This document shows, piece after piece, positions 11,968 through 14,821 of a stretch of 23,107 bases of DNA. The notes beneath the pieces are model-generated. The model was not told where the DNA came from. It saw only the letters and a list, made by a program, of their open reading frames with translations, and searched no databases. The DNA is from a virus, in the IMG/VR virus record IMGVR_UViG_3300032241_002751, positions 1 through 23,107 of that record. One strand, written 5' to 3'. Position 1 is the stretch's first letter. The number at the start of each line of letters is the position of its first letter. Position numbers and translations under genes: made by a program.

Positions 11968-13422
11968 ATGTTCTATACAAACGTATTCATCCGCGGAGAT
12001 TTCATTTATCTCCGCGGATTCGATAAGGGTCTTCGAATCAAGGAAAAGATAAATTATAAACCATATGTTTTTATTCCAAGTAATAAAGGAAATTATAAAA
12101 CATTACAAAACAAGTCTGTTGATAAACTTGTATTTGATAGCATTAAAGATGCAAAGGGGTTTATTGAAAAGTACAGCGAAGTTTCCAATTTTGAATTTTA
12201 TGGATTAACAGGGCCAAACTTCAAGTATCTTTATATTTTCGATAATTTTAAAGGTGATATTGATTATGATCCTCAACTAGTCAAGGTAGGCACATTAGAT
12301 ATTGAGTGTGCTGCTGACGAAGGGTTTCCTAGTATTGAAAGAGCAGATAAGCCTCTGACTGCTATTACTATTCGTAGCAGAGGTAGAAATTATGTATTCG
12401 GTTGTGGAGATTTTAAGTCCAATGATCCCAATACATATTATCTAAAGTGTAAAGATGAACATGATCTAGTTCAGAAGTTTATTGATGCATGGGAAAAGCT
12501 AGACCTTGATATTGTCACAGGTTGGAACATTGAGTTTTTCGATATTCCTTATCTTGTCAATCGCATCAAGCTTCTGTTCGGCGAAGCTCATGCCAAGCGA
12601 CTATCACCATATAAAATACTCGATTCTAAAATGATAGAGTTTCGTGGTAAGGAAAATCAAAGCTATTCTCTGGCAGGGATAGCAGTGATGGATTATTATC
12701 AACTTTATCGTAAGTTTACTTTCGGTAATCAGGAAAGTTATAAGCTAGATTATATTGCTCAGGTTGAACTGGGCGAGAACAAGATTGACTATTCTGAGTA
12801 TGGTAATCTATTAGAACTGTATAAGAAAAACTTTCAGAAGTTTATTGAGTATAACATTCATGACTGTGTTCTGGTTGATAGACTTGATGATAAGATGAAG
12901 TTTATTGAACAGGTCATGGCCATTGCATATGATGCCAAGGTTAATTATGAAGATACTATGACCACAGTTAAACCTTGGGATATTATCATTCATAATTATT
13001 TGCTTGAAAGGAATATTGTTATTCCGCAGTTTGAACCTTCTCATGAAGATTTCGAACTGGTTGGCGGTCATGTTAAGGAAGTTAATCCAGGGTTATATAA
13101 GTGGGTTGTAAGTTTCGATCTTAACAGTCTATATCCTCATCTTATTATGCAATATAATATTAGCCCAGAAACGTTTGTTAATAGGATTGAATTTCCATCA
13201 ATTGACTATTTGCTTAATGGTACATGGGAATATCGTGATGGTTCAGTAGCATATGCTGCCAATGGATGCACATATAGAAAAGACAAGCAGGGCTTTCTTC
13301 CTGCTCTGATGGAAAAGATGTATAATGATCGTGTTGTCTATAAGCAGAAAATGATTGAAGCTAAGAAAGAACTTGAAGAAATTGAAAAAGAAATGAAAAT
13401 TCGTGGATTATTGGCTAATTAA
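11968..13422 (+). CDS. 43: DNA polymerase gp43, N-terminal part (exonuclease domain and motif A)
   Basis: This 484-residue piece holds the N-terminal, 3'-5' exonuclease and first palm portions of a T4-like family B polymerase. The start at ATG 11968 (MFYTNVF) has GAAAGGA upstream; an in-frame ATG at 11929 lies in the leader. Exo I is LDIECAADE (D111, E113; T4 has D112, E114). Exo II is VTGWNIEFFD, Exo III YNIHDCVLVD, and motif A SFDLNSLYPHL with D384. The frame ends at TAA 13420-13422, a few codons after the lysine/glutamate-rich helix KELEEIEKEMKIRG. Motifs B and C are encoded downstream, beyond an insertion. As in some Aeromonas T4-like phages, the polymerase might function as two chains, but the second part has its own defect. 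Confidence 0.93.
   Translation: MFYTNVFIRGDFIYLRGFDKGLRIKEKINYKPYVFIPSNKGNYKTLQNKSVDKLVFDSIKDAKGFIEKYSEVSNFEFYGLTGPNFKYLYIFDNFKGDIDYDPQLVKVGTLDIECAADEGFPSIERADKPLTAITIRSRGRNYVFGCGDFKSNDPNTYYLKCKDEHDLVQKFIDAWEKLDLDIVTGWNIEFFDIPYLVNRIKLLFGEAHAKRLSPYKILDSKMIEFRGKENQSYSLAGIAVMDYYQLYRKFTFGNQESYKLDYIAQVELGENKIDYSEYGNLLELYKKNFQKFIEYNIHDCVLVDRLDDKMKFIEQVMAIAYDAKVNYEDTMTTVKPWDIIIHNYLLERNIVIPQFEPSHEDFELVGGHVKEVNPGLYKWVVSFDLNSLYPHLIMQYNISPETFVNRIEFPSIDYLLNGTWEYRDGSVAYAANGCTYRKDKQGFLPALMEKMYNDRVVYKQKMIEAKKELEEIEKEMKIRGLLAN
11989..12019 (+). repeat. Perfect 12-base stem within the first codons of gp43
   Basis: ATCCGCGGAGAT (11989-12000) and ATCTCCGCGGAT (12008-12019) are perfect complements around a 7-base loop (TTCATTT). 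The stem starts 21 bases after the A of the ATG and is very GC-rich for this genome. In mRNA it would be a strong hairpin just inside the ribosome footprint, suited to translational control. No T run follows. Confidence 0.8.
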
Positions 13423-13439
13423 AATAACAATTACCAATA
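13409..13439 (+). repeat. Hairpin at the gp43/insertion junction
   Basis: TATTGG-C-TAATT (13409-13420) pairs with AATTA-CCAATA (13429-13439): 11 base pairs with a single bulged C and an 8-base loop. The gp43 stop codon TAA (13420-13422) lies at the loop edge. It marks the boundary where polymerase-like sequence gives way to endonuclease-like sequence. Confidence 0.55.
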
Positions 13440-13745
13440 GCTCAACAAAATATTCAAATAGCTATCACTAAAAATAGAGGAAGAAAACGACCAAAACATT
13501 CTGAATTTATGTCAAAATATTTTTCCGAATTTTGGAAAAATAATAAAGAAAAAATGCGAGATGCATTATCAACAACTTTTCAAGCAATTTCACCAACAGG
13601 AGAAATTTATCTAACAAATAGATTACAAGAATTTTGCGAAAATAAAAATTTAAGTTATAGTACTTTATGGACTACAAGTAAAACTGGTATTACACCCAAA
13701 AAAGGGAGAAGTAAAGGATGGTTATGTCGAAACTTAGCGCCTTGA
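13428..13745 (+). pseudogene. Homing endonuclease remnant (C-terminal DNA-binding part only)
   Basis: The frame is open from 13428 (after TAA at 13425) to 13745. It encodes NRGRKRPKHSEFMSKYF, a NUMOD3-like motif of GIY-YIG/HNH homing endonucleases. A stretch SPTGEIYLTNRLQEFCENKN followed by LSYSTLWTT and ending SKGWLCR matches their NUMOD1-like helix-turn-helix tail. No nuclease domain (GIY-YIG or HNH) precedes it, only about 15 codons without a start, so the element is truncated; the internal ATG 13509 would give a 78-residue fragment. It sits inside gp43 between motif A and motif B and overlaps the resumed polymerase frame by 22 bases. Intron-less insertion of a free-standing endonuclease, now decayed, is the simplest reading. 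Confidence 0.72.
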
Positions 13746-14821
13746 GAAAGGAGGAGCTTATTGCGCGCCGTGAGCAGTTGATTAAGGATGTTGCTCGCTA
13801 TCAAAATCTTCAGATGGCGAAAAAAATCCAACTCAATTCTGCTTATGGCGCTCTTTAGCTTGGTAATAGATACTTCCGTTGGTTCTCATTCAATAATGCG
13901 GAGGCTATTACAACTTCAGGTCAGCTTTCTATTCGTTGGATCGAAAGAAAGATGAACAAGTTTATGAATAAAATTTGTAAAACTAAAGATGTAGATTATG
14001 TAATTGCATCAGATACAGATTCTATCTATGTTACTTTTGCTAATCTGATACCTGATAACTCAGATGAACTAGAAGCTGTTAAGTTAATTGATAACTTCTG
14101 TGAAAAATATATTCAATCATATATTGATAAATGTTATGATGAACTTGCGGGTATGATGAATGCATATCAGCAGAAGATGAAGATGAAGCGCGAAACTATC
14201 GCAAATAAGGGCATCTGGAAAGCTAAGAAGATGTATATTCTAAATGCCTGGAATATCGAAGGTGTACAGTTTGATAAACCTAAGTTAAAGATTCAAGGGA
14301 TTGAAGCAGTTAGAAGTTCAACTCCACATGCTTGCAGAGAAAACATCAAGAACTCTCTGTCTATCATGATGAACGAAAACCAAGAAACTCTGATTCAGTT
14401 CATTGAAAAATTCAAGAACGAATTTATTAATCTCTCGTTTGAAAATATTGCATTTCCAAGAGGAGTAAAGGGTATTGGGAAATATAAAGATTCTGCATTA
14501 ATTTATAAAAAGGGAACTCCTATTCATGTTAAAGGAGCGTTATTGTTTAATAACATGATTAAAAAGTTAAACATAAAAAGTATCCCACCAATTTCTGATG
14601 GCGATAAAATTAAATTCGCATATTTAAAGATACCAAATCCCATACAGGATACTGTTATTTCAACGCCAGATGAATTGCCAAATGAACTAGGACTAGATAA
14701 ATATATTGACAGAGACAAGCAATTTGATAAATCATTTCTTGAACCAATTAAATCTATTGCTAATATTATTGGTTGGGAAGTTGAACACAAATCAACTTTG
14801 GAAAGTTTTTTCGATGGTTAA
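13724..14821 (+). CDS. 43: DNA polymerase gp43, C-terminal part (motifs B and C), with in-frame TAG at 13856
   Basis: Frame 2 resumes polymerase sequence from ATG 13724, which has AAAGGA 5 bases upstream. MSKLSALRKEELIARREQL leads to the motif B region MAKKIQLNSAYGAL. A TAG (13856-13858) follows, then CTT and GNRYFRWFSFNNAEAITTSG, normally contiguous with SAYGAL. Motif C is IASDTDSIYV (DTD at 14012-14020). The thumb follows, ending KSTLESFFDG, which resembles the clamp-binding tail of gp43. Without the TAG the two parts total about 850 residues (T4 gp43: 898). The next start after the TAG, ATG 13952, would lose part of the palm. Either the stop is read through or bypassed, or this is a broken gene or sequence artefact. 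Confidence 0.8.
13853..13861 (+). other. CTT-TAG-CTT site inside polymerase motif B (possible ribosome hop)
   Basis: A stop codon is bracketed by two identical Leu codons, exactly between the Leu of SAYGAL and the Gly of GNRYF. Removing six bases (TAGCTT or CTTTAG) restores the family's unbroken motif. Matched take-off and landing codons around a stop are the arrangement needed for a peptidyl-tRNA hop. Whether it happens is unknown. Confidence 0.45.

Follow-up and report, generated by a model that had tools for sequence, protein, structure and literature searches.

How might a T4-like phage obtain a functional DNA polymerase from a gene in which motif B is interrupted by a stop codon? The window analysed here, a 23,107-base stretch that is the record of a T4-like phage, raises this question because a TAG separates NSAYGAL from GNRYF in motif B of its DNA polymerase gp43. 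The first-pass annotation had placed CTT-TAG-CTT at 13853-13861 between SAYGAL and GNRYF, and both the coordinates and the frame proved to be exact, the two CTT codons, the TAG and the GGT at 13862 sharing one frame with no stop between 13862 and 14821. The same gene is split further upstream (Table 1). The N-part comprises the exonuclease domain, the beginning of the polymerase domain and the first fingers helix, and it terminates at the tip of the fingers with ...EKEMKIRGLLAN, its stop at 13422 lying in a frame that differs from that of the C-part. Between the two parts lies what is left of a GIY-YIG homing endonuclease, which has lost its catalytic domain, resembles the C-terminal half of the intact endonucleases of loci L082, L085 and L088 (KKGRSKGW..) and is overlapped by the start of the C-part. 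Past the TAG, the C-part aligns with polymerase chains of the RB69/T4 type from residue 571 onward (E about 1e-53 to 1e-56), the junction immediately preceding residue 571 of the RB69 polymerase.

Table 1. Features of the split gene 43 in the window.
Feature	Coordinates	Strand	Basis
gp43 N-part	11968..13422	+	ORF; Pfam DNA_pol_B_exo1 7e-24, DNA_pol_B 2e-13
GIY-YIG homing endonuclease remnant, C-terminal portion	about 13428..13745	+	likeness to intact homing endonuclease genes
gp43 C-part upstream of stop, 46 codons (MVMSKLSALRKEEL...KKIQLNSAYGAL)	13718..13855	+	ATG start at 13718
Putative take-off codon CTT (Leu)	13853..13855	+	sequence, allele table
TAG stop, predicted 3-nt coding gap	13856..13858	+	sequence
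Putative landing codon CTT (Leu)	13859..13861	+	sequence, allele table
gp43 C-part past the predicted hop, GNRYF... to stop	13862..14821	+	aligns to RB69/T4-type polymerase chains

We determined how this site looks in relatives of the phage. That it is otherwise invariant, as the first-pass annotation had stated, was borne out by 83 distinct relatives in which it is uninterrupted. Among the 80 closest polymerase loci on viral contigs, GAL-GN or variants of it nearly always run without a break, and the junction peptide is covered in one place in 2,214 of 2,239 isolated-phage records. When viral contigs were scanned for GAL, any codon, Leu and GN, TAG was the sole inserted codon in polymerases and no version with a sense codon was found in them; the remaining matches were unrelated proteins, mostly with GALGLGN repeats. 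A search of bacterial genomes for the insert returned one chance match only, in Aliterella.

Searches of viral contigs yielded 17 distinct inserts at the identical spot in motif B, where the polymerase gene is most conserved, all in uncultured relatives of T4 (Table 2); the phage collection that was searched gave no isolate with any of these alleles. They were gathered by gapped pattern scans, which selected for stops, and by a protein-profile search, which did not; stop-bearing inserts were the only ones found, also by the latter. TAG followed by a Leu codon recurs at the window's spot in L082, L085 and L086-L088 (pattern scan) and in L166 (later search), which disfavours the sequencing error considered in the first-pass annotation. 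Assembly error is likewise unlikely because several alleles recur across separate metagenome assemblies. Every Leu-class insert has TAG at this position, and the TAG is retained despite far synonymous divergence between cassettes (dS 1.3 and 1.9).

Table 2. Insert alleles in motif B, with predicted take-off codon, gap and landing codon.
Locus	Take-off	Gap	Landing	Remark
Window	CTT	TAG	CTT	
L088, L082	CTT	TAG	CTC	
L085	CTT	TAG	CTA	
L166	CTC	TAG	CTC	
L152	CTT	TAGC	CTT	
L153	CTT	TAGTGA	CTC	two stops
L148-L150	CTG	TAGCGAAT	CTG	
L165	GGT	TGA	GGA	
L162	GGC	TAGCTA	GGC	
L202, L203, L260, L262	GGT	TA	GGT	
L239	GGT	TAATT	GGA	
L251	GGT	TAACT	GGT	
L258	GGT	TAGTTA	GGA	
L254	GCG	TGACCCGG	GCT	
L161, L167, L261	GGT	T	AGC	match at bases 2 and 3 only
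L210, L212, L214, L235	TCC	TAGTT	ACT or ACC	match at bases 2 and 3 only

Three properties recur across the series. A stop lies directly 3' of the Leu codon, or of the next codon, in 17 of 17 alleles. The landing codon follows 1-8 nt past the take-off codon, at distances that do not respect the reading frame: nine of the 17 inserts change it (their length is not a multiple of three), and the frame downstream is nevertheless intact, running for 315-330 codons after the insert in all alleles. Take-off and landing codons match in their first two bases in 14 alleles and are identical in seven, a match with P about 8e-15 at 1/16 each when inserts are taken as arbitrary DNA and with an assumed independence that shared descent reduces. 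The other three alleles match at bases 2 and 3 only, U and C being counted as readable by one tRNA. Duplication at insertion could likewise leave matched codons, but it accounts neither for the stop in each allele nor for codon pairs that agree at their first two positions and differ at the third. These comparative sequences, with their codon matches and frame changes, lend support to the hop between matched Leu codons that the first-pass annotation had proposed.

Inserts are confined to split polymerase genes. All 17 lie in split genes and none in a continuous one, versus five split and 78 continuous genes with an intact site (Fisher P 4e-15, under an assumed independence that shared descent reduces). 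The polymerases of L082, L085-L088 and L166 are split wherever the flank is present, and in several of them an intact GIY-YIG endonuclease lies directly upstream. An intact endonuclease gene of this type separates 43A from 43B within the fingers in L082, L085, L088, L152, L202, L235 and others; those of L088 and L085 match the Pfam family SegE_GIY-YIG. A separate interruption was seen at L085 (4287-6030) and L152 (7142-8816), where the N-part is broken again by an endonuclease-like ORF on the opposite strand, and L085 also carries intein-like inserts in uvsX and the gp41 helicase. In L090 (Synechococcus phage S-N03), a small unrelated ORF separates the two parts of the split polymerase, and motif B carries no insert.

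The insert marks one edge of the region that moves. Over the 900 bases that lead up to the insert, the DNA of L082 and L088 is 92-100% identical, and identity falls to about 75% right after it, which indicates that a cassette has recently moved and that the insert forms its right end. Cassette transfer between phages is seen in four independent sets (L202/L203, L161/L261, L212/L214/L235 and L082/L088), in each of which the cassette ends at the insert, with a synonymous divergence of 0.00-0.07 upstream of it and of 0.9-3.4, or saturated, downstream. This pattern is consistent with homing through a break at motif B, against which the insert would shield the donor. The sharp drop in identity could also be used for mapping the cut site of the endonuclease in the first three of these sets. 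Both the window and L166 retain the insert although their endonuclease is degraded or gone. In L166 (on the 152.6-kb record G007) and L148-L150, the polymerase parts are separated by about 20-30 nt, the endonuclease being gone and the split and the stop insert being kept.

A different insert occupies the same site in other phages. Aeromonas phage 25 has the order 43A, GIY-YIG endonuclease, 43B, and a group I intron breaks its 43B within the Leu codon of GAL, immediately ahead of GN; the arrangement is the same in Aes002, Aes120, phiAS4, Aes508, Aes512 and Aes517. The layout is shared by Escherichia coli phage G2285, whose intron begins at the GAL site. These phages thus share with the insert alleles both the endonuclease between 43A and 43B and an insert in GAL before GN, but theirs is a self-splicing intron (Rfam RF00028), whereas the alleles in Table 2 have a few bases that would be handled by the ribosome. 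In the G2285 record itself (Escherichia phage vB_EcoM_G2285, L145, 3492-4665), which has a GIY-YIG endonuclease of the same kind and a group I intron starting at the GAL codon, the intron/exon boundaries are declared undeterminable.

The split gene, the endonuclease or its remnant, the insert at the right edge of the cassette, the matched codons and the frame-independent gap lengths point to a common explanation. We propose, with a probability of about 0.85, that TAGCTT and its sister inserts are handled by a short variant of translational bypassing. Peptidyl-tRNA-Leu on CUU would stall with UAG in the A site, release the mRNA and re-pair at the second CUU; GGU would be read next, and the product would be SAYGALGNRYF with nothing added. 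The same rule gives an uninterrupted motif (GAL-GN or variants) in all 17 alleles, the hop requiring re-pairing on two of three bases in the exceptional groups. TAGCTT probably serves as a minimal insert that protects the presumed target site of the gp43-splitting GIY-YIG endonuclease and is removed at translation. Its presence would keep the endonuclease from cleaving the genome that encodes it, a role played by the group I intron at this site in the Aeromonas phages.

Other explanations were weighed against the same alleles. Ordinary readthrough, by a near-cognate or suppressor tRNA or through reassignment of TAG, would produce SAYGAL-X-L-GNRYF with two extra residues. It is favoured by the in-frame insert of the window and by the context of the stop, UAG followed by C being a weak terminator, but it cannot make a polymerase in the nine frame-changing alleles, would have to pass two consecutive stops in L153, and is at odds with a TAG that is never replaced by a sense codon in the polymerase inserts found. 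TAG also ends ordinary genes (2 of 20 in the window, 6 of 50 in record G002 and 17 of 120 in G007), no tRNA gene is present in the window, and none of roughly 70 tRNA genes in the insert-bearing records, which are fragments, reads a stop. Code 15 and the suppressor tRNA that had been listed as an alternative were rejected on this TAG usage and on the tRNA lists of these fragment records, and readthrough as a whole appears improbable. We give less credence still to programmed +1 or -1 frameshifting at a shifty stop in the frame-changing alleles with readthrough elsewhere. CUU UAG C is similar to the shift site of RF2 (prfB), CUU UGA C (PMC13245932), and GGT TAGC AAC (L161, L167 and L261) could be a +1 shift adding one Ser. 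However, the mechanism would have to differ per allele, one to four residues, varying by allele, would be added within the invariant motif B, and the matched landing codon would be left unexplained.

A dead polymerase gene, which had also been listed, or a C-part made as a separate 46-residue piece and a C-terminal fragment by restart after the stop, would explain a reading frame truncated by a stop codon. Both fit poorly with the long intact frames that follow the stop in all lineages and with the strong purifying selection upstream of it, where dN/dS of the C-part against other cassettes is 0.12-0.14. We excluded downstream dN/dS of pairs of the L082/L088 type as proof of selection because that divergence may predate the arrival of the cassette. 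Furthermore, the single family-B polymerase of G007 is the split one with TAG, the alleles share no start codon close to the resume site, and sequence is conserved across the first 30 codons past it, making this explanation very unlikely. Removal of the insert from RNA, by self-splicing or processing, has a precedent in the group I introns at this site in the Aeromonas phages and G2285, but an intron cannot fit in 4-11 nt; we regard it as the least credible possibility, close to negligible. A hidden intron in the window was rejected, no Rfam intron match being found there even at a permissive threshold and the catalytic group I core not being encountered.

Bypassing, the explanation we prefer, has its best-known example in T4 gene 60, and the first-pass annotation had drawn that parallel. 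The comparison holds for the cassette, the insert being the right edge of the GIY-YIG cassette that splits gene 43, much as mobA stands in 39/60: the T4 record has gene 39, mobA and gene 60, with a stop after codon 46. Gene 60 resembles the window in being the C-part of a split replication gene with a homing endonuclease upstream and a conserved motif interrupted after codon 46, and likewise has a UAG adjoining the take-off codon and matched take-off and landing codons (PMC5009743). It differs in its gap (50 nt versus 1-8 nt here), its endonuclease (HNH versus GIY-YIG), its host gene (topoisomerase versus polymerase, the latter with at least 17 alleles) and its 5' and take-off stem-loops, unlike the gp43 inserts, in which neither was seen. 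Since no such stem-loop was seen, we class the inserts as working like gene 60 and not as an element of the gene 60 type. For the gene 60 insert itself, a possible origin is a degenerate intron with a protective effect against the endonuclease (Atkins et al., PMC5009743).

Shorter hops also have precedents. Stop-hops between matched codons function in E. coli constructs (Atkins et al., PMC5009743), and these resemble the window in spanning nine nucleotides, with matched codons around a stop and one amino acid encoded (PMC5009743), but they are constructs only, unlike the gp43 inserts. In mitochondria of Magnusiomyces capitatus, short non-coding blocks are likewise skipped at translation (PMC5009743), in many genes and in several cases without perfectly matched codons, which sets them apart. 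A 2016 review knew of no natural in-frame stop-hop (PMC5009743). The gp43 inserts probably form a natural family of tiny bypass elements, with at least 17 alleles and gaps of 1-8 nt, acting as translation-level stand-ins for group I introns; the window would hold the first natural in-frame stop-hop. Placed in an essential gene, such elements would disrupt a homing endonuclease's target there and be skipped by peptidyl-tRNA hopping. We found no earlier report of such inserts in the open-licence literature.

Efficient bypassing in phages has so far rested on essentially one worked-out case, T4 gene 60, with its stem-loops and nascent peptide. Natural alleles at one site, with 1-8 nt gaps, varied stops and matched codons, offer a ready-made test of the requirements for hopping, and they pair with the introns as two solutions, intron or hop, to one mobile-element problem. 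They also provide a search rule for further cases, namely a stop within a conserved motif adjoining a homing endonuclease. Synthetic stop-hops are inefficient in E. coli, and extra stimulation would be expected. No stable or covarying RNA structure was found around the site. The likely start lies 44-48 codons before the stop in nearly all alleles, and this part includes a charged stretch (e.g. RKEEL..RREQ), a possible nascent-peptide stimulator that is also polymerase sequence. Separately, a Shine-Dalgarno-like AAGGAG(G), conserved at the DNA level, is present at 13748-13753 of the window and at equivalent positions in most insert alleles, about 108 nt upstream of the stop and about 30 nt past the start of the C-part.
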